Shown here in pieces: positions 2,057-29,886 of a DNA stretch of 45,417 bases. The notes beneath the pieces were generated by a model, which saw only the letters and a program-made list of their open reading frames with translations, had not been told where the DNA came from and did no database searches. A program made the position numbers and the translations under genes. This DNA comes from Ruminococcus sp. (GTDB lineage: Bacteria; Bacillota; Clostridia; Oscillospirales; Ruminococcaceae). The DNA lies in assembly GCA_017437285.1 (NCBI GenBank), contig JAFSBM010000135.1, positions 1 through 45,417 of the forward strand, in the 5' to 3' direction. Numbering within the stretch: the stretch's first letter is position 1; each line of letters opens with the position of its first letter.

Positions 2057-2259
2057 GTGATATTCCATTATGCACAACAGAGATATTACAATAAATTACA
2101 GTATCCTGTAAAAATTAAAAATCCCAACGCTAAACTGGCTAAGGTTATTATCAGCCAGCTTGGAGGTCCCGACGGCGAATTGGCAGCATCTCTCCGCTAT
2201 CTCAATCAGCGTTATGTTATGCCATATGGCGAAGTCAAGGGACTCCTGACGGATATAGG
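2057..2259 (+). pseudogene. cotJC: 5' part of CotJC-type manganese catalase, split by the 27.2-kb element
   Basis: The frame reads YYNKLQYPVKIKNPN, then GGPDGELAASLRYLNQRY and ends LLTDIG at base 2259. These are the hallmarks of the first half of the CotJC/manganese-catalase family; the Glu of GELAAS is a metal ligand. The family normally continues TEELAHVEM, and exactly that sequence is found at 29460 onward, 27.2 kb away. After LLTDIG the frame runs into foreign sequence and stops at 2380. The start is doubtful: there is no ATG in frame, only GTG 2057 without a ribosome site, and the usual MWxYEKK beginning is missing. The 5' end may therefore also be damaged. Joined to the 3' part it makes one frame of 209 codons plus stop, close to the usual family length of about 190. 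Confidence 0.85.
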
Positions 2260-2285
2260 TGTATCTGTATCGGAATATGACATTT
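2232..2285. other. attL of the element
   Basis: The chromosomal half (2232-2257, inside cotJC) joins the element half (2260-2285) at GG 2258-2259. The element arm TGTATCTGTATCGGAATATG is the inverted mirror of the arm at the other end: 21 of 26 positions match the reverse complement of 29432-29457. Confidence 0.82.
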
Positions 2286-2304
2286 CAAAAACACAAAAAA
2301 GAAA

Positions 2305-2343
2305 AAACGCTTCTGTTTACTTCAATGTAAATCGGAAGCGTTT
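2305..2343 (-). terminator. Terminator of the XRE repressor gene
   Basis: A long imperfect stem (AAACGCTTC ... GAAGCGTTT, extended by GTAAA/TTTAC) starts right at the stop codon of the repressor. On the minus strand it is followed by TTTTTTCTTTTTT, a good Rho-independent terminator. It also separates the element from cotJC. Confidence 0.8.
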
Positions 2344-2689
2344 ACTTTTTCTGCTGTTCAGCGTTATCACGGATTTTTAAGAGTGTCACATACTTTTCTA
2401 AATCCTCAACACTTTCATTTGAAAGATAGTTATAATCATTCAAGAGCTTTGACATAAATTCTGGAATCTGCTGATACGGATTTTCAATAGTACTTGCCCC
2501 TATCAGATAATCAACAGACACGAAATAATATGTTGCAAGCGTCTGAAGCATATCAATATCAGGTTCTCTTGTGCCGCACTCGTAATTGCTGAGCAACTTT
2601 CGTGAAATGCTTAAATCATCTGCAACCCGTTGCTGTGTATAATTCAGTTTTCCTCGAAGTTCTCGTAATCGTTCGGGTAGTAAGCTCAT
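2342..2689 (-). CDS. XRE-family helix-turn-helix repressor, 115 aa
   Basis: A DNA-binding regulator with an N-terminal HTH_3 domain (about residues 5-62: LRELRGKLNYTQQRVADDL then SRKLLSNYECGTREPD), followed by a short helical tail that may mediate dimer formation. It starts at ATG 2689 behind AGGTGAT. It is transcribed away from the sigma-factor operon; the 228-bp gap between the two holds a strong promoter with an inverted-repeat operator (2773-2787), its most likely target. The arrangement resembles the immunity-type repressors (ImmR-like) that control integrated elements. Family is clear; the regulon is inferred from position. Confidence 0.88.
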   Translation of the reverse strand: MSLLPERLRELRGKLNYTQQRVADDLSISRKLLSNYECGTREPDIDMLQTLATYYFVSVDYLIGASTIENPYQQIPEFMSKLLNDYNYLSNESVEDLEKYVTLLKIRDNAEQQKK

Positions 2690-2766
2690 TTTTCATCACC
2701 TGTATACATTATAATGATTATTTCAAACAATTTAAAGGACAATCGCCTAAAAGTTCCAAAAAACTA

Positions 2767-2795
2767 TTGACTGGAACGCAAAGTTCCATTATAAT
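2767..2795 (+). promoter_or_regulatory. Promoter of the sigma-sensor operon
   Basis: TTGACT (2767-2772), 17-bp spacer and TATAAT (2790-2795), a near-consensus sigma-A promoter 122 bases before the sigma-like gene. Confidence 0.82.
2773..2787. promoter_or_regulatory. Likely operator GGAAC-N5-GTTCC
   Basis: A perfect inverted repeat (GGAACGCAAAGTTCC) fills the spacer between the -35 and -10 boxes. An extra half site AGTTCC lies at 2751-2757. A repressor bound here would block RNA polymerase; the divergent XRE protein is the natural candidate. Confidence 0.65.
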
Positions 2796-2917
2796 TATAG
2801 TATGTGCGTTAAATTGTTACTTACTTGAAAAAATTTTTCGTACACCCCAACAAAGTCAGATTTCAGATTGTCTATTGTATGTAAGCAACACTAAAATCTG
2901 CTACGAAAGGAAAAATT

Positions 2918-4876
2918 ATGAGCGACATTGAAAAGTATGTACAGGATGCCATCGATGGCGATTCTGAAGCGTTTGCAAAGCTGTATGAGCTGTCAAAACG
3001 GCAGGTATATTTCACTTGCCTTAAGTTTCTGAAAAATGAACAGGATGCACAGGATATTACACAGGAAGTTTATATTACCGCCCTTAAAAAGTTGCCTTCT
3101 CTTACAGATAAGTCAAGCTTTCAACCTTGGGTAAATCGTATTGCTGTCAATAAGTGCAAGAATTTCTTGAAAGCAAGGCGTGACATTTCACTGGACGAAA
3201 TACAGGAAGATGATAACTATCCTGAAATTCCTGATGAGGATATGCTCCCAGAGGATTACGTCATGAATGCGGCAAAACGTAAGATTGTTATGGATATTAT
3301 GGAAAGCGTGCTTTCTGATATTCAGTATCAAACAGTCATTATGTTTTACTTTAATAATATGAGCGTTGCCGAAATTGCTGAAATCACAGAATCCCCGACG
3401 GGTACAGTTACATACCGCTTGAATGTTGCTCGTGCGAAAATAAAGAAAGGGGTTTTAGAATATGAAGAAAAGAACAAGGACAGGTTACACGCAATAGTGC
3501 CTATTATACCGTTTCTTACAAGGTTACTTCGTGCTGAAGCAGAGAGCATTGAAGTGCCTTATCTCCTGCCTGAAATCAGTGTTGCAGAGGCAGAGATTGC
3601 AGAAACTACGGTTGATGCTGCAAGTGCAGCGGATACAGCGGCAAAAGGCACAGGATTTTTAAGTACTGTTGCTGGTAAGGTTACAGCTGGGGTTGTGGCT
3701 CTGGCTGTTATTGGAGGAGGTATTGGTCTCTGGCAGTTAAATTCTGATTCCGATACAAAAACGAATAACAACAATATTCTTGAAACAAGTATACAAGAAA
3801 CGGAAGCTGTTCAGAATGCTGAAACAAATATGTCCGCCGATGTATCAAGTTCAGAAGAAACGCATCACGAAAACTGGGTTGATTATGAAGCTCTCGATGC
3901 TGAGTATAGCCGCACTTTTGATGTATCAATGCATATTAACTGTATGGTTGATAATGTTGCATATTTCAGATATTATGACCGTACTACCAATCATGACGAT
4001 TTATGCCGAGGTTATTATACTTATGATGTTTCAACTGGAAGTACAACAAAAATAACCCACGCTGAAAATTCAGTTTATTACAATGGCAATATCTATGCTT
4101 TTTTCAATCTTGAAGACGGACACCATTTCTGCAAATACGATACAAACGGAAATCTTGTTGCTGAGAAAATTGTAGAATACAATGCAAACGAAGCTGAATC
4201 CGCAGAATACATATCTAAACAGGTCAAAAAAGTGTTTGACACGGAATCAATTGGTATGTATACTATTTTAGAAATTACCTATGATGGAAAAATACTTGTT
4301 GATTATAAATACTTTAATTATGATGACGATGACTTTGTGAGAAAGCTTTATATTACAGATATTGATTTTACAGCTTTTGAGGAAGTGTCTTCCTCTATCA
4401 CCCCTTTTCAGAGCATCGATTGGATGGCTCATGATGATGCAATATATGGATTTGATACAACTGATGGGTATGGTTATATCATAGACACTGAAACCAAGAC
4501 ATTTACTGAAAATAACTCTTCTCAGATACCATTCAGAAAATTAGCAGGAAAGTATTTCAGAATTCAAGGTTACTGCATTGATATAACAACTGGCGAAGTG
4601 CTTTGTCATTATAATGGTGACACAATTTATGTTGGCGGAGATTACAGCTTTGAGGTACTGGACAGGCTTGATGGTATTATCAGTAAATACAAATACCGTA
4701 TTGTTTCTGAAGAATTTGAGGATTTAGTGGTTATCCGTGATGGTATTTCTACGGTAAACAAGGATGTTTCTGTTCTTATTCTTGATGACAATCATTACCT
4801 CTATAACACTCATGACGGTATCTATTTATGCCAGATGGATACAGGAACGGAAACGTTAATAAAAATTCCAGAATAA
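2918..4876 (+). CDS. ECF-like sigma factor fused to a membrane-anchored sensor domain, 652 aa
   Basis: Residues 1-180 are an ECF-type sigma-70 factor: region 2 at about 18-85 (LYELSKRQVYFTCLKFL, then QDAQDITQEVYITALKKL) and region 4 at about 125-180 (FYFNNMSVAEIAEITESP). An Ala-rich linker and a single membrane helix (about 253-272, VVALAVIGGGIGLW) follow. About 370 residues then lie outside the cell; they are rich in Tyr, Asp and beta strands with repeated YxYD-type stretches, and look like a beta-propeller or DUF5050-like domain. A sigma factor tied to the membrane in one chain suggests that it is released or switched by an outside signal. Start ATG 2918 has AAAGGA before it. It leads an operon of six genes that ends with two lipoproteins. 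Confidence 0.8.
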   Translation: MSDIEKYVQDAIDGDSEAFAKLYELSKRQVYFTCLKFLKNEQDAQDITQEVYITALKKLPSLTDKSSFQPWVNRIAVNKCKNFLKARRDISLDEIQEDDNYPEIPDEDMLPEDYVMNAAKRKIVMDIMESVLSDIQYQTVIMFYFNNMSVAEIAEITESPTGTVTYRLNVARAKIKKGVLEYEEKNKDRLHAIVPIIPFLTRLLRAEAESIEVPYLLPEISVAEAEIAETTVDAASAADTAAKGTGFLSTVAGKVTAGVVALAVIGGGIGLWQLNSDSDTKTNNNNILETSIQETEAVQNAETNMSADVSSSEETHHENWVDYEALDAEYSRTFDVSMHINCMVDNVAYFRYYDRTTNHDDLCRGYYTYDVSTGSTTKITHAENSVYYNGNIYAFFNLEDGHHFCKYDTNGNLVAEKIVEYNANEAESAEYISKQVKKVFDTESIGMYTILEITYDGKILVDYKYFNYDDDDFVRKLYITDIDFTAFEEVSSSITPFQSIDWMAHDDAIYGFDTTDGYGYIIDTETKTFTENNSSQIPFRKLAGKYFRIQGYCIDITTGEVLCHYNGDTIYVGGDYSFEVLDRLDGIISKYKYRIVSEEFEDLVVIRDGISTVNKDVSVLILDDNHYLYNTHDGIYLCQMDTGTETLIKIPE

Positions 4877-4963
4877 TTTTTCTAAAAAACCCAACATTTA
4901 CGAAAGTCAAGTTGTCTATTAATCAGAAAGCGGTGAAATCCGCAGAATATTGGAGGTAAACAA

Positions 4964-5665
4964 ATGAAGGAAGAACTTTTAAAAACCCTGAAAGGTGCCA
5001 GCAAGTATGTGGAAAGCGTGTACGAACAAGAGCGAGTTTGTGACGGCATTAAGAACACTATCAAGGAAATCGAAAAATCAAAGGAAAGGGAGTTATCTAA
5101 TAAAAAAACAATTGGCATTGTTGCTGGTATCGCTGTCGGCATTTTATGCGGAATGATTTTCCCTTATGATTTATATAATCGTCTTCTTGATGCTGGTGCA
5201 CCTAAATTCTTTTACTTTGCTCCTTTAGTTGCAATTATTGTTCCAGGAATTATTGTGGGTATTATTGTTACCAAGGTTTTAAAAAATAAACTTATCAGTA
5301 ATTCAAAGTATGATAAGCAAATTACAGAGCAAAAGATTGCTTTGCAAGAGGCCGATTCATTATATTGTGCAATGGCTCATAACGCTGGAGTTCTTTTCCC
5401 TCAGATTCCCCCAAAGTACCTTGCTGATACAGAGATTCTCCAACAGTTATATGATATATTGGATTTCGGACGTGCTGATAGCTGGAAAGAAGCTTTAAAC
5501 GTGCTTGAAATGGATTTACATAACAAGCGTATGGAAGATGATGCCAAAAACGCTGGGCGACTTCAGGAACAGATGCTGCAATCAATCAAGAACACCGAAT
5601 ATCAGGCACAAAGAACAGCCGATATGATTGCTTTGCAAAATCTATTCGGCAATAACAATAATTAA
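4964..5665 (+). CDS. Membrane protein with coiled coils, 233 aa, unknown
   Basis: An N-terminal charged helix (1-45) is followed by two membrane helices (about 48-68, GIVAGIAVGILCGMIF, and 82-108, FYFAPLVAIIVPGIIVGIIV). A long cytoplasmic helical part (110-233) with coiled-coil character ends in an Asn-rich tail. The start ATG 4964 has TTGGAGGT upstream. It is second in the operon after the sigma-sensor gene. No enzyme motif is seen; a scaffold or signalling partner of the neighbouring membrane proteins is a guess only. Confidence 0.8.
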   Translation: MKEELLKTLKGASKYVESVYEQERVCDGIKNTIKEIEKSKERELSNKKTIGIVAGIAVGILCGMIFPYDLYNRLLDAGAPKFFYFAPLVAIIVPGIIVGIIVTKVLKNKLISNSKYDKQITEQKIALQEADSLYCAMAHNAGVLFPQIPPKYLADTEILQQLYDILDFGRADSWKEALNVLEMDLHNKRMEDDAKNAGRLQEQMLQSIKNTEYQAQRTADMIALQNLFGNNNN

Positions 5666-5685
5666 AATTACAGGAGGATTTTATT

Positions 5686-6072
5686 ATGTCACTTTTTGAT
5701 GATAAGTACAATAATCAGAACAACCGAAAGAGCCTCGGAGATGATATTTTTGATGGCATTAGCTCAGCATTGCCTTTTGCAAAGTCGGCGAGCGAGAAAA
5801 TCACGGGTCATAGCGTTGAGGACGATGTCAAGAAAATAAAAGGCTATAGTGATTCCGAATATGATGGAATGACAACAGAACAGCTTACGAAATTAAAGAA
5901 AACTTATTTCTGGAGAATGCTTTTTCTTCCTGTCAGCATTTGGCTGTTAGTAAGCGGTTTTTCAGACTATAATTTATGGTATGTTTTTGTAGGAATAATT
6001 GCTCTGGTAGCTTCGCTAAGTGCAATTAAGCAATACAGGAAAGCAAAAAAGCATCTTGATGTAGATAAATAA
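5686..6072 (+). CDS. Two-helix membrane protein, 128 aa, unknown
   Basis: A polar N-terminal half (1-75, including a DIFDGISSALPFAKSASEKI helix) is followed by two adjoining membrane helices (about 78-95 and 99-115) and a short basic tail. It starts at ATG 5686 behind CAGGAGG and lies 20 bases after the previous gene. Both this and the preceding protein carry a membrane hairpin, so they may form a complex; that is inference from gene order. Confidence 0.8.
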   Translation: MSLFDDKYNNQNNRKSLGDDIFDGISSALPFAKSASEKITGHSVEDDVKKIKGYSDSEYDGMTTEQLTKLKKTYFWRMLFLPVSIWLLVSGFSDYNLWYVFVGIIALVASLSAIKQYRKAKKHLDVDK

Positions 6073-6081
6073 GGAGGCACC

Positions 6082-6495
6082 ATGGATACAATTGTAGTCA
6101 ACAACGTGGAAATCAAATTCGCTGATAATATTCCAGCCGAGCAGAAAGGCAATGCTATTGCGTTTGCGATGGATTTTGTAAACAGAAACTCTCATCCAAT
6201 CAAAAACGCCTGCGTTTGTATGCTTAATGGAAAATTCAAAATGGATTACAGAGAGAAAGTCGGAAATGACGATATTGACCACATGAATTTTATAAATGAA
6301 AACGGAGAGGAAGAGGATTTCAAAATCATCTGCCATGGAGGTTGGGGCGAAGAGGAAGAAGAACCATATACTCCTCCCACTCCCACATATCCTGATAGGT
6401 CGGATGAAATCATAAAGGCAATGGAAAGAGTGGCACACCAAACAGAACGTGTTGCAGACCAACTCTGGTGGCAGTCATTCAATAACAGCTTATAA
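6082..6495 (+). CDS. Hypothetical soluble protein, 137 aa
   Basis: A predicted soluble domain (1-85) is followed by an acidic Pro-rich linker (GGWGEEEEEPYTPPTPTYP, about 87-105) and a C-terminal amphipathic helix (DEIIKAMERVAHQTERVADQ). It has no signal peptide. The start ATG 6082 has AAGGAGG; spacing to the genes on both sides is 9 and 17 bases, so it is co-transcribed with the membrane proteins and lipoproteins. The C-terminal helix may bind one of them. Function unknown. Confidence 0.78.
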   Translation: MDTIVVNNVEIKFADNIPAEQKGNAIAFAMDFVNRNSHPIKNACVCMLNGKFKMDYREKVGNDDIDHMNFINENGEEEDFKIICHGGWGEEEEEPYTPPTPTYPDRSDEIIKAMERVAHQTERVADQLWWQSFNNSL

Positions 6496-6512
6496 ATACG
6501 GAGGTACATATA

Positions 6513-7208
6513 ATGAACAAGACAAAAAGGATTTTAGCATCATTTATTGTTGCAACAACAATTCTAACAATGGCAGGTTGTGGAACAGATGAAACAGCAG
6601 ATAGCACAGTTTCGACAAGCAATACCCAATCTGTAGCTGATAAGGAAACAGATGTACAGACAGATACTATTACTGAAGAAGCAAAAATACCTGTGGGTAA
6701 GCTCGAAGATAGTCCTGAACTTACAATTGAACTTAAGAACGGTAAGATATTCACTTACAATGGTGAAAATTTTAGTGATGTTTATCAGCAGCTTACAGAC
6801 CTTAGTCTTGTAACAGACGATGCTAAGACAAAATATGAAACCGAAGGCATATTTAACAGCGGACGTCTTGAAGCAAGCAATGGTACTTTGTTTTTTATCG
6901 ATTATCTTTCTAACAAGAAAGAATTTATTGTAAGAACAGGTTCAGGCGTAAAAAATAAGGTTGCATGGAACATTACTATCGGCGGTATTGACAATACAAT
7001 GACTATTTCCAATCTCGTGGATATGGGTGCAGAAGCTATTCGTGAAGAATCAAGTGCGCACGGAGACAGAATTACTGATTATCTTCTCACATCAGAAAAC
7101 TTTGAAACAAAAGGTGTTAGTATTAAGGCAAGCGGTGATGGCAGTCCTAAGCCTGAAGACCTTATTGTAGAGGGAATTTATATCACATATTCTGGCGTAG
7201 AAAAATAA
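6513..7208 (+). CDS. Lipoprotein, 231 aa, first of a tandem pair
   Basis: A typical lipoprotein signal peptide (KTKRILASFIVATTILT) ends in the lipobox MAGC, with Cys 23 as the lipidated residue. A Thr/Ser/Asp-rich linker (25-60) is followed by a beta-rich domain, ending ENFETKGVSIKASGDGSPKP and YITYSGVEK. The next gene is its paralogue: signal peptide, linker and the C-terminal ENFETKG block match. Start ATG 6513 has CGGAGGT. It would sit on the outer face of the membrane, where it could interact with the extracellular part of the sigma-sensor protein of the same operon (inference). Confidence 0.85.
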   Translation: MNKTKRILASFIVATTILTMAGCGTDETADSTVSTSNTQSVADKETDVQTDTITEEAKIPVGKLEDSPELTIELKNGKIFTYNGENFSDVYQQLTDLSLVTDDAKTKYETEGIFNSGRLEASNGTLFFIDYLSNKKEFIVRTGSGVKNKVAWNITIGGIDNTMTISNLVDMGAEAIREESSAHGDRITDYLLTSENFETKGVSIKASGDGSPKPEDLIVEGIYITYSGVEK

Positions 7209-7224
7209 AACGGAGGTACTTACA

Positions 7225-7944
7225 ATGAATAATATGAAGAAATTTTTAGCAACATTTGTTGCAATGGGAACATTGCTTACAATGGCAGGATGTGGAACTG
7301 ATGAATCAACCGATAGCATGGTTTCAACAAGTAAGAGTGAAGCTATAGATGATAAGGAAACAGCCGAGCAGACAGAACTTGTTGTGGAAGAAAAAACAGA
7401 AGTCGCATCCATGAAACTGGCAGATGATGCGGTACTTGAAATTGATATGGGAAATGGAGAAATGATTTCCTATCACGGTCAACCTTTCTCCGAATTTATG
7501 AGTGAGCTTGAAACAAAGTTTGGTGTTGAATTTAAATTGGTAGAGTCTAAAAAAACAGATGTACAATACAAAACATACAAAACCATAGATTACTTCAAAA
7601 CTTCTAATGGAAACTACATCAAATTTAATTATAGTGTGGATAACAAGGAATTGAGCATTAACATTGAAGGTCTTAACAGCGTCAAGAACGGTGATGGCGG
7701 TTATGATATTACAATGCTTGATTTTTCTCTCGGAGGCATTTCCGCTACTACTACTTATGATGAATTTGTAAAAATGGGTGCAACAACATCCGAAGATGAT
7801 TCAGATAAATATTGGATGGCTTCGGAAAACTTTGAAACAAAGGGCGTAAAAATCCAGGTATCCGATAACAATAACGTAAACAATCGCAACAAGGATTATA
7901 TTGTTGCAAAGCTCTCTATTACCTTTACTGGTGTGGAAGAGTAA
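7225..7944 (+). CDS. Lipoprotein, 239 aa, second of a tandem pair
   Basis: Paralogue of the preceding lipoprotein, with signal peptide and lipobox TMAGC followed by GTDEST (the first has GTDETA). The mature domain is beta-rich and differs in the middle (insert KKTDVQYKTYKTIDYFKTS), but the C-terminal block SENFETKGVKIQVSD is shared. The tandem arrangement with 16 bases between genes suggests a local duplication followed by divergence. Start ATG 7225 has CGGAGGT. It is the last gene of the operon; a terminator follows at 7972. Confidence 0.85.
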   Translation: MNNMKKFLATFVAMGTLLTMAGCGTDESTDSMVSTSKSEAIDDKETAEQTELVVEEKTEVASMKLADDAVLEIDMGNGEMISYHGQPFSEFMSELETKFGVEFKLVESKKTDVQYKTYKTIDYFKTSNGNYIKFNYSVDNKELSINIEGLNSVKNGDGGYDITMLDFSLGGISATTTYDEFVKMGATTSEDDSDKYWMASENFETKGVKIQVSDNNNVNNRNKDYIVAKLSITFTGVEE

Positions 7945-7971
7945 AATACAACTATTACGATTTAATAACAA

Positions 7972-8010
7972 AGGCTCTGTTACCATTAAGGTTTCAGAGC
8001 CTGATTCTTT
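7972..8010 (+). terminator. Terminator of the lipoprotein operon
   Basis: A perfect stem AGGCTCTG / CAGAGCCT (7972-7979, 7995-8002) is followed by GATTCTTT. Confidence 0.75.
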
Positions 8011-8016
8011 ATGTAG

Positions 8017-8056
8017 TGTCACAAGTATGTCACAGTGACAAAGCTGTGACGTCACA
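8017..8056. promoter_or_regulatory. Cluster of GTCACA palindromes
   Basis: One TGTCACA, then the palindrome TGTCACAGTGACA (8028-8040) and the palindrome TGTGACGTCACA (8045-8056) are packed into 40 bp. This looks like a multi-site protein-binding region. No gene reads through it; the bound protein is unknown. Confidence 0.55.
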
Positions 8057-8462
8057 GGGTAGTCTTCTTATATAAAGCATATAGTTTCTGTGCACTTATA
8101 GTATAAGATTAGATGAGCTAAGCTACGCTTAGCTGTTCATTTCCCTTCTTGTCATTTCCTGATTTATATATTTATTAATATAAAGAAGAAAGAAAAAACT
8201 TACTTTTGACTATTTTAAAATTATTGTAATTTAGCTATTAGAAACAAAAGCTACATCTTTGCAATTATTTCCACAAAGAAAACCGCCTGCAATTTGTAAC
8301 TACAAGCGGTTTCGATATATATTAAAAAAGGATGTACAAAAATGTAAAAACAATCAATTGATTTCCTTTACACGCTTTTTTCAGATTTGAAAGAGCTGAA
8401 AAACGTGATAAAATCGTTGGTTATTACGATTATTTTGTTTACATGGTTTAATTTTACATATA
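8057..8462. other. Non-coding stretch with two hairpins
   Basis: No credible gene. It holds a perfect hairpin AGCTAAGC-tac-GCTTAGCT (8116-8134) and a terminator-like stem AACCGCCTG / CAAGCGGTT (about 8281-8311). The second may end transcription from either side, between the lipoprotein operon and the convergent recombinase gene. The rest is AT-rich without clear structure. Confidence 0.5.
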
Positions 8463-9062
8463 CTATTTATCAGTAAGCAGAGCTATATATTTGTTCAGTG
8501 TCGGACGACTGATTCCGCAAAGAACGGCATATTCGCTTTTACTTATTTGTTTATTTCTGTAACGTTCAAACATAACCTGAACTTTTTCAGGAATATCATT
8601 AACAGTCAAGGATGGTCTGCCCAACCTTACGCCTTTACTTTTCGCATTAGCCATACCCGACTTTACACGGTCACATATCATATTGCGTTCAAGTTCGGAA
8701 AAGACCCCTGCAATCTGTAAAAAAGCATTCGTCATAGGGTCAATGGTATCTGAATTTGTGCAATCTATTGTGATACTGTCTTTGATAATCAGTTTCAGAT
8801 GTCTTTGTTTAACGAGTTCGATGATATCACATAATTGCTTGGTGCTTCTTGTTATACGGCTGATTTCCGTAGTTACAATAGCATCACCGTTAGTAACTGA
8901 ATTTAACAATTTATTCAACTCAGGTCTGTGTATTTTTGTTCCGCTTTCATACTCAAGGAATATCATATCCGCAGATACACCCATTTTCTGAAGCTCTCGT
9001 TTTTGTCTGTTGACATCTTGTTTTGTTTCATTCGTACTGCATCGACAGTATCCATATACCAA
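8463..9062 (-). CDS. Small serine recombinase (resolvase/invertase), 199 aa
   Basis: A site-specific DNA recombinase of the Pin/Tn3-resolvase type. Catalytic domain at about 1-140, with the nucleophile Ser in YGYCRCSTNE (about residue 8), EISRITRSTKQL and FLQIAGVFSELERNMI; a C-terminal helix-turn-helix (SKSEYAVLCGISRPTLNKY) binds DNA. Upstream in-frame ATGs exist, but the best start is TTG 9062, which has AGGAGG nine bases before it and gives the usual short beginning MVYGYCR. It lies beside an hsdS cassette in the restriction locus, yet the inverted repeats there look more suited to the neighbouring tyrosine recombinase; its own target is unknown. Confidence 0.88.
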   Translation of the reverse strand: MVYGYCRCSTNETKQDVNRQKRELQKMGVSADMIFLEYESGTKIHRPELNKLLNSVTNGDAIVTTEISRITRSTKQLCDIIELVKQRHLKLIIKDSITIDCTNSDTIDPMTNAFLQIAGVFSELERNMICDRVKSGMANAKSKGVRLGRPSLTVNDIPEKVQVMFERYRNKQISKSEYAVLCGISRPTLNKYIALLTDK

Positions 9063-9111
9063 TAAACATCGCCTCCTGAAATTCATATTTCCAAACTGTT
9101 TTATTATTATA

Positions 9112-9140
9112 ATTTTACCATATTTTTCGGGATTTGTCAA
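9112..9140 (-). promoter_or_regulatory. Promoter of the small serine recombinase
   Basis: On the minus strand TTGACA (9140-9135), a 17-bp spacer and TAAAAT (9117-9112), 50 bases before the TTG start. Confidence 0.7.
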
Positions 9141-9169
9141 ACAAGAGTAAATCGGCAAACAGATAAACT

Positions 9170-22197: not shown

Positions 22198-22233
22198 AAA
22201 GATATCTACGTTAATACTAAGCAAAAAACATAA

Positions 22234-22262
22234 CTCAGAGTTGCTTATATAAGCACTCTGAG
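22234..22262 (+). terminator. Hairpin between two small genes
   Basis: Stem CTCAGAGT(T)GCTT / AAGCACTCTGAG around ATAT, followed by GATTTCTT. Possibly an intrinsic terminator or an attenuator; the next gene starts only 27 bases later. Confidence 0.6.
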
Positions 22263-22288
22263 GATTTCTTAAAACAGGAGGGTTTATC

Positions 22289-22732: not shown

Positions 22733-22737
22733 TGTTT

Positions 22738-22771
22738 AAGCAGGCACACTGACCTGTGCCTGCTTTTATAA
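22738..22771 (+). terminator. Rho-independent terminator before the integrase unit
   Basis: A perfect 10-bp stem AAGCAGGCAC / GTGCCTGCTT, then TTATAATT. It would limit readthrough into the integrase genes. Confidence 0.82.
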
Positions 22772-22792
22772 TTACTAAAAGGAGGAATGCTT

Positions 22793-23089
22793 ATTAACAA
22801 CATCATTTTAAATTTAAGCAAGAATATGCCTGCAACAGACGGAACAGGCGCTCTTGCATACGGACAAAATCTGGGTGCATATACTGCTCCCAGGGGGATG
22901 ATTTTGAATCTCGACAAAACAGATAAAACCACTAATCCATTCCTGCTTATCCTCAGCGATGAGCAGAAAGAGGCAATGAAAATTAACCTCAAAATCGGAA
23001 TTTACAAGCAGTTACACGAAAATGGTTTCATAAACACATTTCAGCTAAAAAAACTGATTTCACTGAATGGTGGTGGCGACTTATGCTGA
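22793..23089 (+). CDS. Small protein coupled to the integrase, 98-100 aa
   Basis: Residues 1-55 include GTGALAYGQNLGAYTAPRGM; the C-terminal helices (LKIGIYKQLHENGFINTFQL) look like the SHOCT-type short helical domain common in small proteins beside serine recombinases. The in-frame ATG 22787 stands only one base after AAGGAGG, too close; ATT 22793 is seven bases away and fits better, as in the 19.5-kb train. Its TGA overlaps the integrase ATG (ATGCTGA), so the two are translationally coupled. A role in controlling recombination direction (an excision factor) is possible but unproven. Confidence 0.68.
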   Translation: MNNIILNLSKNMPATDGTGALAYGQNLGAYTAPRGMILNLDKTDKTTNPFLLILSDEQKEAMKINLKIGIYKQLHENGFINTFQLKKLISLNGGGDLC

Positions 23090-24687
23090 ATGTAGGAGTG
23101 TACTGCCGTGTATCTACCGATTCCGAGGAACAAAGCTTATCTCTTGAAAGTCAAAAGCAGTATTTCAGAGAGGAAGTAAATAAAAATCCAGAATGGAAGT
23201 TGAAAGAGGTATATTACGATGAAGGAATCACAGGAACAAGCACTGAACATCGTGAGGGCTTCAACCGTATGATTGACGACGCTCTGAACGGAGAACTGGA
23301 TTTAATCATAACGAAAGAAATCAGTCGTTTTTCAAGAAACACTGTAGATACGCTATTCTATATCAGACTTCTCAGAGAATGCGGAGTAGAAGTAAAATTC
23401 CTAACTGATGGTATCAATTCGTTTGAAAAAGATACTGAACTCAGACTTACCATTATGGCAAGTATCGCACAAGAGGAAAGTCGCAAGACCTCCGAGCGCG
23501 TTAAATGGGGGCAGAAACGCAGAATGGAGCAAGGAGTCGTATTCGGCAGAGATTTGCTCGGATATACAGTAAAAAAAGGAAAACTTTACATAAATGAAGT
23601 CGAAGCAGAAACTGTTAAGTTGATATTCCATAAATTTCTGAACGAAGGAAAAGGAACGCACGTTATCGCAAGAGAGCTTCGCGAGGCTGGTATACAGCCC
23701 AAACGTGTGAAAGAGTGGAGTAATACGGTTATCCTTCGTGTGCTTCGCAACGAGAAATACGTCGGTGACCTTTGCCAGAAAAAGACGTATACACCTAATT
23801 ACCTTACTCATAAGAAGAAATACAACAGAGGGGCTGAAGAAATGGTCTATCTTAAAGACCACCATGAGCCTATTATTGACAGAGAAACCTGGGACAGAAC
23901 ACAGGAAGAGCTTGCAAGACGTTCTCTTTCAGCAGAACAGAAAGCTAAACACAGCAATCGCTACTGGTGCAGCGGAAAACTCATATGCGGCGAGTGCGGC
24001 AGACGTATGGTAAGCCATGTGAGAAAACGCAGAGATGGTTCAGGCAATAAAACCTGGGTATGCTATGAAAATGTTAAAAACGGAAAGCGTAAGACAGATA
24101 AATTTGGTAACGAAATAGGTTGTGATAATAATTCTGTAAATGAAAAGACCTTATTATCAGCTGTTGCGTATTGTCTGAAATTTATTCAGATGAATTTTAC
24201 CGACCTGAAGCAGGAATTGCTTGACGAAATCAAAGTTGTCCAGTCTTTTCGTCCTAAAGATAATACAGAAGTTTTCTATAAGAAAATTGAAACTTTACAA
24301 AAACAGAAATCAAAAGCTATTACACTCCTGATTGACGAGCTTATTACAGAAGAAGAATTTAAACACAAGAAGAATGAAATTGACCTCAAAATTTCTGAAC
24401 TTCAGGATAAAATTGATTCAATTCTTAATTACGAATCCGAAATCAAAAAGAAAACAAAAACGATTGAAGAGTATATTGCAGAAATTGACCGTATCATGTC
24501 CTATGATATCGAACAAACCGAAATTTACGGCTCTGTTACAGATAAAATCATCATTAACAAGGATGATACTCTTAATGTTTACTTCAAAGGACTGCCGTTC
24601 GGTATCGGTTTAAGCTATACAACAAGCGGAAAGGGTGATAAATACAAATCCATATTCAAATTTCTTGGTACAACCGAGATGAAATAA
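23083..24687 (+). CDS. Large serine recombinase, integrase of the element, 534 aa
   Basis: A site-specific serine integrase. The N-terminal catalytic domain (1-145) has Ser 11 in YCRVSTDSEEQS and KEISRFSRNTVDTL; a recombinase domain (about 155-270, FGRDLLGYTVKKGK) and a zinc-ribbon domain with Cys pairs (CSGKLICGECGRRM, about 293-306, then CYEN and GCDNN) follow, with a long coiled coil (about 390-480) that controls synapsis. Length and order fit the TndX/TnpX-type family. ATG 23083 overlaps the stop of the small gene before it. It is the best candidate for the enzyme that inserted this DNA into cotJC with a GG core. Confidence 0.95.
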   Translation: MLNVGVYCRVSTDSEEQSLSLESQKQYFREEVNKNPEWKLKEVYYDEGITGTSTEHREGFNRMIDDALNGELDLIITKEISRFSRNTVDTLFYIRLLRECGVEVKFLTDGINSFEKDTELRLTIMASIAQEESRKTSERVKWGQKRRMEQGVVFGRDLLGYTVKKGKLYINEVEAETVKLIFHKFLNEGKGTHVIARELREAGIQPKRVKEWSNTVILRVLRNEKYVGDLCQKKTYTPNYLTHKKKYNRGAEEMVYLKDHHEPIIDRETWDRTQEELARRSLSAEQKAKHSNRYWCSGKLICGECGRRMVSHVRKRRDGSGNKTWVCYENVKNGKRKTDKFGNEIGCDNNSVNEKTLLSAVAYCLKFIQMNFTDLKQELLDEIKVVQSFRPKDNTEVFYKKIETLQKQKSKAITLLIDELITEEEFKHKKNEIDLKISELQDKIDSILNYESEIKKKTKTIEEYIAEIDRIMSYDIEQTEIYGSVTDKIIINKDDTLNVYFKGLPFGIGLSYTTSGKGDKYKSIFKFLGTTEMK

Positions 24688-24747
24688 AAGAGGTTTCATA
24701 GGGGTTCTCTTTAAATTACCCTTAAATAAATTACAAAGGAGACGTTT

Positions 24748-25581
24748 ATGGCTAAAGAAGTTATAAGCAAGAGGAGCTTTATTCACGCAAACATCATAGA
24801 AGAGCTTAATGCAAAATATCCTCTTTACAGCGAGAAAAACGGGGTAGCATACAGCAGAGACCTGAAATACATCACTTTTGAGCCTTCAGTTGATTTTGAT
24901 GCCAATATTGTTGCCTTAGATGTGCAGATGGGATTTGGCGTATTCAACGTCATTGTCTATTTTGCTGAAGAAATGATGAAAGGAGGTTACAAAACCAGAG
25001 TTGATGGATATAATCTTGAACGTCATTGTCTTACTTGTTCAGGAAAATATGGTGTACCCGCTGATAAAGTAAAACAAATTGTGGAATCACTTGAAAACTG
25101 TAATTACTTCTTCAGAATTGCAGATGAAACCTATCAGTACCTTACTACCTGTCAGGCGGTCTATGACTACGAACGTTGTATGAACACAAGGCTTGAGAAC
25201 AGAAAAAGAAAAGAAAAAAGTCGTGAAAAGTTCAAACAGATTGTGCAGACACAGAATATGCTGCCTGCAACGCCTCCGCCGCTGCCTCTCCCCGAATATC
25301 CGCCGCAGATGGACTGTAATCAGCAGTACGGTTATCCGAATTCCTGCAATCAGGAATATGATTACCCTTGCACTTGCAGTGAAGAACTTGATAATCTTGA
25401 AGATTTCGAAAGGCAGTATCTTGAAGAAGACAGATGGCGTGAAGAAAATGGTTTGAATCCTCCAATGCCATGCTATGATGAATTTGGAGAAGATAATGAA
25501 ATGTATGACCCTCAGCCACCTACCTCAGACATAGTGTTTGATGAAGCTCTGCTAAGACAAATGGCAGAGCAAAACGATTAA
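24748..25581 (+). CDS. Hypothetical protein with DUF4373-like N-terminus and Pro/Tyr-rich tail, 277 aa
   Basis: Residues 40-145 (FDANIVALDVQMGFGVFNVI, then CNYFFRIADETYQYLTTCQA) resemble the DUF4373/Lin1244-type domain found in replication-linked proteins of phages and integrated elements; this is a weak match by eye. Residues 150-170 are strongly basic (RLENRKRKEKSREKFKQ). The tail is unusual: a Pro run (TPPPLPLPEYPPQ), then Cys/Tyr/Asn repeats (CNQQYGYPNSCNQEYDYPCT) and acidic helices. Start ATG 24748 behind AAAGGAG. It follows the integrase by 60 bases. Confidence 0.65.
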   Translation: MAKEVISKRSFIHANIIEELNAKYPLYSEKNGVAYSRDLKYITFEPSVDFDANIVALDVQMGFGVFNVIVYFAEEMMKGGYKTRVDGYNLERHCLTCSGKYGVPADKVKQIVESLENCNYFFRIADETYQYLTTCQAVYDYERCMNTRLENRKRKEKSREKFKQIVQTQNMLPATPPPLPLPEYPPQMDCNQQYGYPNSCNQEYDYPCTCSEELDNLEDFERQYLEEDRWREENGLNPPMPCYDEFGEDNEMYDPQPPTSDIVFDEALLRQMAEQND

Positions 25582-25589
25582 GAATTTTA

Positions 25590-25620
25590 CCCGTAAGCAC
25601 AGCTTGCGGGCTTTATTATT
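25590..25620 (+). terminator. Rho-independent terminator
   Basis: Stem CCCGTAAGC / GCTTGCGGG with a 3-base loop, then CTTTATTATT; it ends the integrase unit. Confidence 0.78.
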
Positions 25621-25676
25621 TTCGAATAATGTGTAAAATTAACTCGAAAACATTTCGGAAAATGTGTAAAAACCTA

Positions 25677-25705
25677 TTGAAATAATTCTTAAAAAGTGGT
25701 ATAAT
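25677..25705 (+). promoter_or_regulatory. Promoter of the AAA/DUF4143-GmrSD-like operon
   Basis: TTGAAA (25677-25682), a 17-bp spacer, TATAAT (25700-25705), 25 bases before the GTG start. Confidence 0.75.
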
Positions 25706-25729
25706 ACTACTTATAAGGAGCGTGATAAT

Positions 25730-27025
25730 GTGAAACGTAACGCAATAAAAGAACTTTTAGCTTGGAAAAACAGCACTGACCGAAAGCCTCTCGTACTCAA
25801 GGGTGCAAGACAGGTGGGCAAAACCTGGCTTATGGAGGAGTTTGGCAGGTTGTATTATGAAGATACATTCTACTTCAACTTTGACGAAGAGGACGAATTG
25901 AAGTCAATTTTTGAGACAAACAAAAATCCACACAGAATTATTGAATTATTGGGGCTTATCAAGGGTAAAAAGATACTACCAGAAAAGCATCTGATTATCT
26001 TCGATGAGGTACAGGAATGTTCGGAGGCTCTGAACTCTCTGAAATACTTCTGTGAAAAGGCAAATGAATATCACATCATCTCCGCAGGCAGTCTGCTTGG
26101 TACACTGCTTGCAAAGCCTAAGTCATACCCTGTAGGCAAGGTGAATCTTCTGAATATCAGTCCTATGACCTTTGATGAGTTCCTCGCTGCTACGGACGAG
26201 GGGTTGTATTCATACTACACCAGTATTGAAAAGGGACAGCATATTGAGGAAATCTTCCACCATAAACTGCTTGACGCTTACAACTATTATTTAATTATTG
26301 GTGGTATGCCCGAATGTGTGCAGTCGTGGATTACGCACAAAGACCCTGCCGAGATTTCCCGTATTCAGCAGGAATTGATTGAATTATATGAAAATGACTT
26401 CTCCAAGCACAATGGAAAAGTCAACAGTGGACGTATTCTTATGGTTTTCCGTAGCCTTGTAACTCAGCTTTCAAAAGATAATGAAAAATTCGTCTATGGC
26501 TGTGTTCGTGAGGGTGCAAGAGCGAGAGAGTTTGAGGAGGCTATCGAGTGGCTTGTGTCGGCAGGAATGGTTCTGCGTATCTATAACGTAAGTAAGCCTG
26601 AGCACCCCTTAAAAGCATACGAGCAATTAAATCATTTCAAGCTGTTTATGTTCGATGTGGGCTTGATGAAACACATGGCGGCAATCAGCAACGAGGCGAT
26701 TCTCTTGAAGTCTGATTATCAGTTCAAGGGTGCGTTGACAGAAAACTATGTATTACAGCAGATAAAGTCACTGTATGATACCGAACCGAAATATTACGCT
26801 CCGACACCTACAAATGAGATTGACTTTATCGTTCAGAACGGAATGGATATTATTCCGATTGAAGTCAAGGCTGGCGAAAGTGTAACCTCTGCAAGCTTTA
26901 AGAGCTATCTCAAGGAGCATAAACCTGAAAAGGCAGTCCGTTTCTCTAAGCTTGGATATGAGAGCAATGACAGCTTTGTGAATGTTCCTCTTTATTTTGC
27001 AAACAAGATGAATGAGCTTGTATAA
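25730..27025 (+). CDS. AAA ATPase with DUF4143 domain, 431 aa
   Basis: An archaeal-type AAA_14 ATPase. Walker A GARQVGKT at residues 25-32, Walker B LIIFDEVQE (about 86-94), sensor-like HIISAGSLLG. The C-terminal DUF4143 part (about 200-400) includes the nuclease-like EIDFIVQNGMD and IEVKAG (about 365-382), the pattern of a PD-(D/E)xK fold. Start is GTG 25730 with AAGGAG; ATG 25727 is followed at once by TGA and so is excluded. Members of this family are common and of uncertain role. It forms an operon with the DUF262 gene 30 bases downstream, which points to defence or DNA transactions. Confidence 0.9.
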   Translation: MKRNAIKELLAWKNSTDRKPLVLKGARQVGKTWLMEEFGRLYYEDTFYFNFDEEDELKSIFETNKNPHRIIELLGLIKGKKILPEKHLIIFDEVQECSEALNSLKYFCEKANEYHIISAGSLLGTLLAKPKSYPVGKVNLLNISPMTFDEFLAATDEGLYSYYTSIEKGQHIEEIFHHKLLDAYNYYLIIGGMPECVQSWITHKDPAEISRIQQELIELYENDFSKHNGKVNSGRILMVFRSLVTQLSKDNEKFVYGCVREGARAREFEEAIEWLVSAGMVLRIYNVSKPEHPLKAYEQLNHFKLFMFDVGLMKHMAAISNEAILLKSDYQFKGALTENYVLQQIKSLYDTEPKYYAPTPTNEIDFIVQNGMDIIPIEVKAGESVTSASFKSYLKEHKPEKAVRFSKLGYESNDSFVNVPLYFANKMNELV

Positions 27026-27055
27026 TAGCGTTAAACGGAAAGGACTGGAACTAAA

Positions 27056-29155
27056 ATGTTTATATTTCAAGGAAGTATTATAACAAACTTTCTTAGTCAG
27101 AACGGGCAGCAATATAAAATTCCTGTATATCAAAGAAATTATGAATGGTCTAAGGAACAGTGTAAAAAGCTGTTCGAGGACATTGTTCAGGCAGCAGGGC
27201 GAAATCAGCTCCATTTCTGTGGTTCTATCGTATTTCAGCCTCTTGCACCTATTAAAGGTATCAACAACAGCATTATTATTGACGGACAGCAGAGATTAAC
27301 TACGATTTATATACTCATCAAGGCTTTATACGATATGGCGGCAAATGATGCTGAAAAGGTTGCTCCAGAACAGGCTTTGTTCAATAAAGACCAGTTCGGT
27401 CAGTATACAATAGACGACACAAGCAAAATGAAATTAAAGCCTGCTAAGGACAATAATGACCAGCTTCTCAGCCTTATTCATGGCAAATTTGATAAGCTTG
27501 ATAAAAGCTGTGAAATCTACAGAAACTACACTTATTTTTGTGAAATGATAAAGGAACAGCAAAATAAGGGAATGACTGTTTCTGACATTTATCGTGGTAT
27601 CAGCCTGCTGACCGTTGCTGTCATTCAGCTTGATGGAAATGACAAGGCACAGGAAATCTTTGAACGTATCAACTCAACAGGTATTCCGTTAAGCCTTGCT
27701 GATAAAATCAGAAACTACGTATTGATGACTGATATTAATCAGGACTATCTTTATGAAGAATATTGGATAAAAGTTGAGAGAATGCTACCGAAAGAGCAGC
27801 TTTCCGCATTTTTCCTTGACTATCTTAATATCAAGATTGACGGCTTCGCAAAGGAAACCGATGCGTATGACGTTTTCAAATCAGTCTATTCCGATGGAAA
27901 GTTTACAAACGAAAGTATGTTAAAGGAAATTCTGCATTACGCCGAGTTTTATCATACTTTCCTCTACGGAAACAAGGCTTATGGCGAAAATGTAGACTGT
28001 CTGCTGAAAAACCTCCAGAAACTGAAGCAAACAACAGTTTTCCTGTTTCTGTTCAGAGTGTTTGATGACCATAAGGCTGGAATTATTGATAATAAGGAAC
28101 TTGAGAATATACTCCGTTTCCTGCTTAATTACAGCATACGCCGTCTTATTTGTGAAGTAGGTTCAAACTCCCTGAGAGGCTTATATAAGACTCTTTATTC
28201 AAGAGTTTTCGCTCGTCCCGAAAACAAGAATCATTATTATGATGCAATTGTTTCATTCTTCCAGCAGTCAACATCCAAGGATGCTTTGCCTACTGAAGAA
28301 GCATTTACACTTGCACTGGAACAAAACAATCTCTATCGCAAGAATGCCCTTTGCAAGTTCCTGCTTGCTGCTATCGAGAATCAGGGCAAGGAAAAACTGC
28401 AAACAGATAATCTTACAATAGAACATATTATGCCGCAGAATAAAAACTTGTCTACCGCATGGCAGAAAATGCTTGGAGAGAATGAATGGCAAAACGTTCA
28501 GGATAAATATCTGCATACTCTCGGCAATCTTATGCTGACAGGATATAACAGCGAACTTGGTGATAAGCCTTTTGATGTTAAGAAAAAAGAGCTTGAAGAG
28601 GCTGAAACTAAAATAGTTATCCTTTATTCTGATGTCAGAGAATGCGAAAAATGGAACGCAGATACAATAGAAAAGCGTGCTGAAAGACTGTCGGGTATAG
28701 TCAAACAGCTATTTCCGATTGAACAGCCTGTAACACGGATTTCATTTGCTGACCCTCGCTATCAGGAATACACTTGCGATGACCCTGACACAGCAACATA
28801 TAAGACTCCGAATTATTACATTTTACAAGGCGAAAGAGTGAATGCAACAAATTTTGCAGAGCTTTTACGTTCATTAATCAGCCGACTGTATGAAATGGAT
28901 GATAGCATCATTAAGGAAATGGCAAAGAATAACGAATGTCTTATTCCTTGGTCGCAAAATATTCTTTTCTCTTATGATAACGAGCTTGTTTATGGAGATT
29001 TAAAACTTGGAGATACTGATATTTATATGGGTTCAGGATTTTCAGCTTCATATATTATGCATATTATCAGAGCGTTGCTTGATAAATATGATATTGACAG
29101 AAGTGAGTTCGTTTACAGTGCACGTTCCAGCAAAAAGACTGATAAACAAGAATAG
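27056..29155 (+). CDS. GmrSD-like DUF262/DUF1524 protein, 699 aa
   Basis: An N-terminal DUF262 domain has the nucleotide-binding signature IPVYQRNYEW (about 22-31) and DGQQRLTT (about 77-84), as in the GmrS part of type IV restriction enzymes. The central domain carries the DUF1524 HNH-type nuclease (IEHIMPQNKNLS, about 456-467, and LGNLMLTGYNSELG). The last 110 residues form an extra domain (NYYILQGERVNATN ... SASYIMHIIRALLD). It would cut modified foreign DNA using nucleotide hydrolysis. ATG 27056 has only a weak GGAAAGGA about 14 bases upstream. Second gene of the operon with the AAA ATPase, close to the right end of the element. Confidence 0.9.
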   Translation: MFIFQGSIITNFLSQNGQQYKIPVYQRNYEWSKEQCKKLFEDIVQAAGRNQLHFCGSIVFQPLAPIKGINNSIIIDGQQRLTTIYILIKALYDMAANDAEKVAPEQALFNKDQFGQYTIDDTSKMKLKPAKDNNDQLLSLIHGKFDKLDKSCEIYRNYTYFCEMIKEQQNKGMTVSDIYRGISLLTVAVIQLDGNDKAQEIFERINSTGIPLSLADKIRNYVLMTDINQDYLYEEYWIKVERMLPKEQLSAFFLDYLNIKIDGFAKETDAYDVFKSVYSDGKFTNESMLKEILHYAEFYHTFLYGNKAYGENVDCLLKNLQKLKQTTVFLFLFRVFDDHKAGIIDNKELENILRFLLNYSIRRLICEVGSNSLRGLYKTLYSRVFARPENKNHYYDAIVSFFQQSTSKDALPTEEAFTLALEQNNLYRKNALCKFLLAAIENQGKEKLQTDNLTIEHIMPQNKNLSTAWQKMLGENEWQNVQDKYLHTLGNLMLTGYNSELGDKPFDVKKKELEEAETKIVILYSDVRECEKWNADTIEKRAERLSGIVKQLFPIEQPVTRISFADPRYQEYTCDDPDTATYKTPNYYILQGERVNATNFAELLRSLISRLYEMDDSIIKEMAKNNECLIPWSQNILFSYDNELVYGDLKLGDTDIYMGSGFSASYIMHIIRALLDKYDIDRSEFVYSARSSKKTDKQE

Positions 29156-29166
29156 TAATAAATAGT

Positions 29167-29198
29167 CTGGGAAAGCTCATAAAACTGTGCTTTCCCAG
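29167..29198 (+). terminator. Terminator of the GmrSD-like operon
   Basis: A perfect 10-bp stem CTGGGAAAGC / GCTTTCCCAG; no long T-run follows, only TGCCATTTATAT. Confidence 0.65.
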
Positions 29199-29212
29199 TG
29201 CCATTTATATCA

Positions 29213-29340
29213 ATTCGCTCAGTTTTTGTTGTAAATCTCTGATAATTCCCTCATTTTTTGTTGGATTTCTCAGATAATTCGCTCTGATTTTGTTGTAAAA
29301 CGCAAATTATTCACTCATTTTTTGTATAAGACATTTTCTG
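29213..29340. repeat. Four 32-bp tandem repeats next to the right end
   Basis: Units start at 29213, 29245, 29277 and 29309, exactly 32 bp apart. Each begins ATTC-N-CTC, then (A/T)(T/G)TTTTTGTTG, and the first two end in CTCTGATA or CTCAGATA. They are 60-80% alike and have no unique spacers between them. They lie about 90 bp inside attR and could bind a protein (excision factor, replication initiator) or be an origin for the excised circle. Confidence 0.8.
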
Positions 29341-29405
29341 TCAGATATAAAAGAAGCATAGTCTTAAAACAAGATGAATAAAACTCGTATAATACCAACA
29401 GCCAG

Positions 29406-29429
29406 AAAAGCCCGTAAAACAGGGCTTTT
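29406..29429. terminator. Terminator at the right boundary of the element
   Basis: Stem AAAAGCCC / GGGCTTTT around GTAAAACA, immediately inside the att arm. It would shield the element from transcription on either side. Confidence 0.65.
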
Positions 29430-29431
29430 CC

Positions 29432-29485
29432 AGATGTCATATACCGATAACAATACAGGCACAGAAGAACTTGCCCACGTTGAAA
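29432..29485. other. attR of the element
   Basis: The element arm (29432-29457) meets the chromosomal arm (29460-29485) at GG 29458-29459. The element arm AGATGTCATATACCGATAAC matches the inverted left arm at 21 of 26 positions. Confidence 0.82.
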
Positions 29486-29886
29486 TGATCTCGGCGATAC
29501 TCTATCAGCTTACAAAAGATTTATCCATTGATGAAATTAAGGCAAGCGGATTTGACACCTATTTTGTAGACCACACCACAGGAATTTATCCCGTAGCTGC
29601 ATCAGGTGCTCCATTTACCGCAACCTATTTCCAGTCCAAAGGCGATATTATCACCGATCTTCACGAAAATCTTGCGGCAGAACAGAAAGCACGTACCACC
29701 TATGACAACATTCTCCGCCTTGCCGATGACCCTGATGTACGTGATCCAATTAAGTTTCTGCGACAGCGTGAAATCGTCCACTATCAGCGTTTTGGCGAGG
29801 CTCTCCGCCTGACTACCGACAGACTCAATTCTAAGAATTTCTACGCCTGCAATCCAAGTTTTGATAAGAATTGCCCTAACAGATAA
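29458..29886 (+). pseudogene. cotJC: 3' part of CotJC-type manganese catalase, split by the element
   Basis: From 29460 the frame reads TEELAHVEMISAILYQL, then SGFDTYFVDHTTGIYPVAAS and FLRQREIVHYQRFGEALRLT, the second half of the CotJC family including the metal-binding EELAHVE and the E...H of REIVHYQRFGE. The frame is open upstream into the element, and ATG 29374 or 29434 could in theory start a fused protein, but neither has a ribosome site. The protein is a two-iron/manganese ferritin-like catalase that sits in the spore coat in Bacillus and Clostridium. In this state it is inactive; precise excision would join it to 2057-2259 in frame. Confidence 0.9.

Follow-up and report, generated by a model that had tools for sequence, protein, structure and literature searches.

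Large serine recombinase elements within the spore-coat gene cotJC of a gut Ruminococcus and its relatives

Introduction

This work concerns a 45,417-bp contig of Ruminococcus sp. (JAFSBM010000135.1, here C122; the whole contig is called the window below), in which a 27.2-kb element carrying a large serine recombinase (LSR) gene, element B, lies within the spore-coat gene cotJC. The closest described systems, quoted here from excerpts of the papers cited, are also elements inside sporulation genes, with sigK, spsM, spoVFB, spoVR, gerE and yabG as the known targets. The skin element of Bacillus subtilis and Clostridioides difficile is an LSR element which splits the mother-cell gene sigK and restores it by precise excision (PMC5025042); the C. 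difficile LSR is made constitutively and gated by a mother-cell recombination directionality factor (RDF) (PMC5025042). SP-beta also is an LSR element splitting a gene, in this case the spore-envelope gene spsM, which is later rejoined (PMC4191935). The gin element in gerE of B. cereus ATCC10987 is similar in layout, being a 28.6-kb non-phage island with three serine recombinases in a small sporulation gene (PMC5595907). Further sporulation-gene intervening elements, in other target genes, are vfbin in spoVFB, vrin in spoVR and yin in yabG (PMC4191935, PMC10747680). In C. difficile the attachment site of the prophage phi027 neighbours a CotJC-like gene, but the excerpts describe that gene as adjacent to or downstream of attR, not as split (PMC11222575, PMC12122855). 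Heterocyst interruption elements (101 in 22 orthologs, with sizes from about 1 kb) are likewise numerous and lie in genes of a cell that is terminally differentiated, although these belong to cyanobacteria and nitrogen fixation (PMC4874684).

Element B shares with the sporulation-gene intervening elements an interrupted coding region, a short repeated core at which excision would restore the exact frame, and a recombinase with inverted-repeat attachment (att) sites. It differs from skin in that its target is cotJC and not sigK, so it is not a skin element proper, and its gating by sporulation is a proposal. Unlike SP-beta, which is an active phage, it has no phage structural gene among the open reading frames (ORFs) scanned (17 with Pfam, 9 with PHROGs, which is part of the ORFs of the element). 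In contrast to gin, it resides in another gene, and this gene is broken at six recurrent sites. cotJC is not among the targets named in the excerpts of PMC4191935 and PMC10747680; among the matches listed from the open-access full-text literature there was no report of cotJC as interrupted or as an integration target, and the word "catalase" is absent from the main text of a large LSR survey.

In the literature found, as far as its excerpts go, intervening elements have so far been described one target gene at a time. cotJC offers one coat gene with six recurrent sites and largely site-specific LSR clades, seen in numerous genomes of a single gut genus as well as elsewhere among the Clostridia. 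The idea of a safe harbour, i.e., of integration into a gene required by none but a dying cell, becomes testable by comparison, and LSRs are obtained together with att sites readable from genomes. It is also a warning for annotation, in which cotJC may readily be overlooked or taken for a pseudogene.

Structure of the split cotJC gene

The window belongs to a 4.1-Mb genome, G000 (235 contigs, completeness 99.9%, contamination 4%), where cotJC is found in three pieces, cut by two elements which we call D and B. The features relevant to this split are as follows.

1..2095, unstranded: right-hand end of element D, its left end presumably being on contig C101; core in the final bases AAA (complementary arm on C101, locus L106 from 6043; in-frame join)
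2096..2259, plus strand: cotJC middle piece, codons 8 to 62 (Pfam PF05067, tblastn, join)
2258..2259, unstranded: left copy of the GG crossover core, attL (shared core, element-end arms)
2260..29459, unstranded: element B, 27.2 kb, integrated at cotJC codon 62 (shared core, palindromic ends; empty site in relative G146)
2260..2284, unstranded: left attP arm of element B (20/25 complementary to the right arm)
22787..23089, plus strand: small ORF overlapping the LSR start, candidate RDF (its family adjoins site-B LSRs)
23083..24687, plus strand: LSR, 534 aa (Resolvase, Recombinase and Zn_ribbon_recom domains; site-B clade)
29433..29457, unstranded: right attP arm of element B (complementary to the left arm)
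29458..29459, unstranded: right copy of the GG core, attR (shared core, element-end arms)
29460..29886, plus strand: cotJC 3' piece, codons 62 (last base) to 204 with the stop (Pfam PF05067, join)

Both window pieces match the Mn_catalase profile (PF05067), the 5' one over positions 4-63 (E 1.4e-15) and the 3' one over positions 61-196 (E 5.2e-32). The GG at 2258-2259 is repeated at 29458-29459, 27,200 bp away (the core can also be written GG/AGG), and fusion of the halves at GG in silico gives ..LLTDIGTEELAHVEM.. in frame. A preliminary description of this DNA had claimed just this, a 27.2-kb element splitting cotJC at a shared GG and halves that join in frame.

The ends of element B form an inverted repeat about GG with agreement at 20/25 positions. 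In the null comparison described below its arms score 19/24 (0.79), above the maximum of 0.67 reached by 311 pairs of ends from different sites. By sequence, these ends look like the two halves of an LSR attP, one in attL and the other in attR. The LSR gene is intact, with Y7, R9 and S11 invariant in a 12-row alignment, and its product is likely the integrase/excisionase of the element. The small ORF overlapping its start has no match in Pfam, NCBIfam or PHROG; its family adjoins the LSR in 32 of the 51 site-B loci examined (a second small-ORF family does so in 12 loci), which makes it a candidate RDF.

Empty sites and joined ends

A search of 125 genomes of the same genus with the joined cotJC DNA gave matches in 100 at E<=0.001. 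The closest relative found by cotJC, G146 (contig C14; 584/591 nt aligned gap-free, 88% identity), is uninterrupted at site B, yet broken at site D like the window. An empty site B thus exists, and in relatives the 5' half runs on into intact cotJC rather than continuing differently; on these two points the preliminary description had staked its account.

One subfamily of site-B elements was found in four states: attB (L010, L013, L014), attL (G123), attR (G039) and joined ends (L188). On one side L188 matches the G123 element with 97.8% identity over 4.36 kb, and on the other the right end in G039 with 89.8% identity over 197 bp. Element ends are also joined at the core inside a contig of G002 (C68; L203, also L076), where they probably represent tandem elements in cotJC. 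L188 and L203 show the joining of ends, as a circle or a tandem, in relatives and not in the window element. Two contigs of G039 stop exactly at the site-B crossover (C11 ends with ..ACCGATATAGGTA, C38 starts with ACCGATATAGGTACAG; loci L081, L082 and L083), and the L183 contig likewise ends exactly at the site-B core. The G039 ends are as expected if both the empty and the filled forms were sequenced; this is a hint, as a strain mixture would look identical. No end overlap was found in the 20 contigs checked for circularity.

The gene and element sequences argue strongly for site-specific, reversible integration into cotJC. The earlier interpretation stands as regards a precise site-specific insertion of the reversible kind, located in a spore-coat gene of a genome with sporulation genes, and falls as regards the supposed damage to the 5' end.

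Element D and the true start of cotJC

The first codons of intact relatives, MWQYEKK, are absent from the window, where ..ATGCACAACAGAGATATTACAATAAA precedes LQYP instead. Codons 1-7 follow cotJB on contig C101 (L106, 6022-6042), which has the only cotJB match of the genome. The order on C101 is cotJA, cotJB, ATGTGGCAGTATGAGAAAAAA and then foreign DNA with an arm complementary to the ATGCACAACAGAGATATTACAATAAA end in the window. C101 and the window would therefore flank one element D, a link spanned by no contig. A similar right end was present in 21 of the 22 site-D loci printed, the window included; the exception is L146 (G127).

Fusion of the C101 piece with both window pieces yields MWQYEKKLQYPVKI..CPNR, 203 aa plus a stop, in frame, compared with 204 aa in the intact reference CotJC. 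What had been taken for a damaged 5' end is the junction of a second element, with the start codons on C101, and the 209-codon gene reported previously was counted from an upstream GTG that belongs to the end of this other element. An uninterrupted catalase gene on C150 was considered as a second cotJC and rejected, being a paralog 34% identical to CotJC.

Interruption of cotJC across the genus

The intact CotJC protein was compared with 100 sampled genomes of the same genus, and the table of the 83 that matched at E<=1 was read by hand. cotJC was contiguous (codon 1 to at least 200) in 18 genomes and not contiguous in 64, while one (G098) had only a paralog. Up to 64 of the 82 cotJC-bearing genomes, or 65/83 with the window genome added, therefore carry the gene in pieces; this is an upper figure, because some genomes (e.g., G006, G094, G103, and G112) show lone or contig-end pieces only. 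Eight paralogous catalases (34-36% identical) are unbroken from codon 1 to at least codon 184, that of G098 having a stop.

Six break positions recur: D (codon 7), A (codons 30-31), B (codon 62), B' (codons 64-65), C (codon ~135, few cases) and E (codons 174-176). Contig C7 of G119 has four cotJC pieces, in order and on one strand, with gaps of ~33, 35 and 19 kb. Elsewhere the spacing of pieces on single contigs ranges from ~1.5 kb (G037, B') through ~60 kb (G070, B') to ~160 kb (G035, E). The shortest of these (L078, 1789-3307) contains little beyond an LSR frame between the two cotJC pieces. Decay of the 3' end of G044 was considered and rejected, since the apparent frame loss is another junction at site E, of the kind seen in G119 and G114. 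A second cotJC fragment of G015 (L110, contig C24) lacks codons ~54-173, with an intact copy elsewhere in that genome.

Recombinase groups and attachment sites

In a quick LSR tree of 103 rows (96 different; long-branch warnings were given), the recombinases of sites A (16 rows), C (3), D (11) and E (9) each occupy one side of a starred branch, while B' (12 rows) needs three changes. Site B (14 rows) is broken only by duplicates of B genes (L034, L036, L037, L039, L041) and by C68 of G002 (L035, L076), a contig which itself carries a cotJC 3' piece. L038 and L040, with no known cotJC piece, are outside sisters of the site-B clade. Nearly every break site thus appears to have, largely, an LSR clade of its own.

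Scanning of GTDB contigs with the site-B LSR alignment found at least 588 stretches in at least 570 relatives, and the best 80 loci were kept with up to 10 kb on each side. A cotJC piece (E<=1e-3) was present in 70 of these best 80. Among named genomes, Lactonifactor longoviformis DSM 17459 (L216) has cotJC on both sides of the break next to such an LSR, and Ruminiclostridium papyrosolvens C7 (L230) has the 3' side. Of the ten loci without a piece, four (L200, L207, L236 and L252) are unexplained. In L195 a short end of cotJC is seen, the sequence of L183 breaks off at the core, joined ends are reached in L188 and L203, and L190 and L208 extend no more than 174 bp beyond the LSR.

The arms of element ends were compared in 44 genome pairs (A 12, B 11, B' 10, C 2, and E 9), leaving out G033, G039 and G071 (B) and G097 and G036 (B'), which have missing ends or doubly cut halves, and all of site D. 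As a null we used 311 mismatched pairs with ends from different sites (median 0.46, 95% 0.58, maximum 0.67). The best arm centre agreed with the own site in 42/44 pairs, and the match exceeded the null 95% in 30. The two cotJC halves of G002 have different LSRs.

Selection on cotJC

A near-whole gene could be read in frame for 40 genomes, the window genome included. In 32 of them it consists of at least two pieces, which were rejoined in silico, and in eight it is cut only near codon 7 (G130, G099, G024, G038, G095, G105, G127, and G096). None of the 40 split genes has a stop over the codons read (8-202), of which G044 lacks 28, G041 lacks 23 and all the others at most three; the codons of G044 after 174 were left out because this gene is cut again at site E. 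The ratio of nonsynonymous to synonymous substitution rates (dN/dS) had a median of 0.035 in 15 split-split pairs (dS 0.05-1.2), 0.028 between intact genes (only two usable pairs) and 0.034 for split genes against the nearest intact one (32 genomes, eight without usable dS being dropped). G000 and G146 are separated by 61.7 synonymous and 6.3 nonsynonymous differences. Such values suggest strong constraint, i.e., purifying selection on the pieces of cotJC.

Probable link to sporulation

SpoIVA is encoded in the window genome and in 75 of 80 relatives. Before cotJA, 35 of 40 distinct upstream regions have a TGTAAC-like box and, 17 nt downstream of it, [CA]ATAnnnT[AG] (the pattern was set by us, with a spacing of 14-18 allowed). 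This motif resembles the sigma-K consensus. A sigma-E motif was sought in 20 spoIVA upstream regions (one too short) and no common promoter was seen; spoIVA seems to lie close behind another gene.

The best match of the window genome to a sigma-K model is contiguous (C10:5922-6581) and below the model cut-off, as in 59/60 relatives. Other genomes of the genus have sigK-like genes split beside LSRs at about model residue 109-129: L331 (G013:C13), L332 (G015:C60) and L333 (G035:C1), with L334/L335, on two contigs of G031, as a probable fourth case. For each of these LSRs the four best matches are site-E LSRs (28-32%), none of them from site B. Separately, spoIVA of G048 is apparently split near residue 410 (L336/L337 on C15 and C36), and its 3' piece is in the same open frame as an LSR.

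Like skin and SP-beta, the cotJC elements would be removed in the mother cell when it sporulates; this is the best explanation of these data, and a likely one.

Proposed mechanism and alternatives

We propose that the LSR of element B would cross attP with attB in cotJC codon 62 at GG, leading to integration, and that element D would enter codon 7 in the same manner. With a directionality factor, for which the ORF at 22787-23089 is the candidate, the LSR could reverse the crossover, releasing a circle and restoring cotJC to the base. Excision would take place in the doomed mother cell. Since cotJA-cotJB-cotJC has a mother-cell-type promoter, no other cell should require the gene, and the element would lose nothing by excision there, its integrated copy being retained in the spore; cotJC would therefore be a safe harbour, which would explain the six recombinase groups found there. 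We consider this account, with two LSR elements residing reversibly in cotJC and the gene restored in the mother cell, to be probable. On its extension to the whole genus our opinion is evenly balanced: cotJC may routinely be a gene in pieces, assembled by one to three DNA-splicing events in the mother cell, each with its own recombinase drawn from at least six LSR groups that have specialised on different sites of this 204-codon gene, which would amount to a germline-soma split at genus scale.

Alternatively, cotJC could be dispensable and a plain integration hotspot, with LSR elements coming and going by ordinary mobility (transfer, stress), no link to sporulation, and the gene surviving because each lineage is empty part of the time. 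Several findings weigh against mother-cell excision, and some of them favour such a hotspot. No cotJ-type promoter was found in element B with a motif derived from 29 cotJA promoter pairs and run over 354 kb of element DNA and the upstream regions of 65 LSRs; the element DNA as a whole gave 10 matches against 3.6 expected, a slight excess only, and a score of at least 9 was reached before 4/41 LSRs at cotJC sites and 2/24 other LSRs, i.e., without enrichment at cotJC sites. The missing promoter before the LSR is not decisive, because in C. difficile it is the RDF alone that is mother-cell gated, the LSR being constitutive (PMC5025042, excerpt). The arms of the joined ends match only at 12/24 (L188) and 13/24 (L203) positions, and in 14 of the 44 genome pairs arms were no better than the null 95%. 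The 40 genes analysed for selection were picked for recoverable pieces, which biases them against decayed copies. The LSRs are under purifying selection as well, and several look younger than the divergence of their hosts. Of 10 same-site LSR pairs, eight had a cotJC sequence from both genomes, saturated in two of these (G117-G031, G000-G116). In the six comparable pairs LSR dS was clearly below cotJC dS in three (G119-G044 and G025-G093 at B', G119-G046 at A; e.g., 0.10 vs 1.15), near it in two (G025-G093 at A, G035-G019 at E) and above it in one (G082-G019 at E). The picture is therefore mixed as to long co-inheritance of insertion and gene: where LSR dS is the lower, the elements pass from host to host and some insertions are recent, and the conservation of cotJC pieces may partly reflect recency. 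A hotspot also agrees with the defence cargo of the window element and with cotJC pieces (E<=1e-3, some weak) in 11 of 67 viral contigs related to the site-B LSR, so some elements are probably phages. We nevertheless regard a hotspot free of any developmental role as unlikely: a gene that is non-contiguous in up to 64/82 genomes retains a dN/dS of about 0.035, the eight paralogous catalases are all contiguous, and six LSR groups in one coat gene, together with split sigK-like genes in the genus, fit a developmental refuge better.

Two further explanations seem much less plausible than mother-cell excision. If the insertions were one-way and cotJC a decaying pseudogene, it would be natural that the pieces as they stand cannot give CotJC, and the deleted second fragment beside the intact copy of G015 could be an example. 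Such gene death is very improbable given the strong constraint and lack of stops in 40 genes, the four ordered pieces on one contig of G119, the existence of joined element ends and the explanation of the G044 frame loss by a site-E junction. Chimeric contigs fusing element and cotJC ends could be suspected in a genome of 235 contigs with 4% contamination; the same junctions with matching arms recur in many genomes, including the cotJC pieces on the 3.6-Mb contig of G035, and an assembly or binning artefact is hardly credible.

Other genes of element B

The remaining annotated genes of element B are mainly related to regulation, recombination and defence.

2342..2689, minus strand: HTH regulator (HTH_19/HTH_3; Pfam)
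2918..4876, plus strand: sigma-70-region-2 (extracytoplasmic function-like) protein with a long C-terminal extension (Pfam)
8463..9158, minus strand: small serine resolvase/invertase (Pfam Resolvase; PHROG DNA invertase)
9170..10479, both strands: two partial hsdS genes, 9170-9940 on the plus and 9919-10479 on the minus strand (PADLOC Specificity_I)
10490..11515, minus strand: tyrosine recombinase between hsdS copies (Pfam Phage_integrase)
12218..18358, minus strand: type I restriction-modification genes hsdS (12218-13486), hsdM (13470-15134) and hsdR (15125-18358) (PADLOC)
25730..27025, plus strand: AAA_14/DUF4143 ATPase (Pfam; PADLOC candidate family PDC-S01)
27056..29155, plus strand: GmrSD-like nuclease, GmrSD_N/GmrSD_C (Pfam, PADLOC)

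The tyrosine recombinase gene is surrounded by inverted repeats of 79 nt with 92% identity (9884-9962 and 12196-12274), and 9170-13486 probably constitutes an invertible type I specificity locus working by hsdS inversion. A dispersed repeat encoding ..KEKTDR..SCKETF.RRA.. was seen on several contigs of the window genome; in the window it lies within 653-937 and from 30926, in L001 at ~1315-1470 and in L106 at ~6200-6310.

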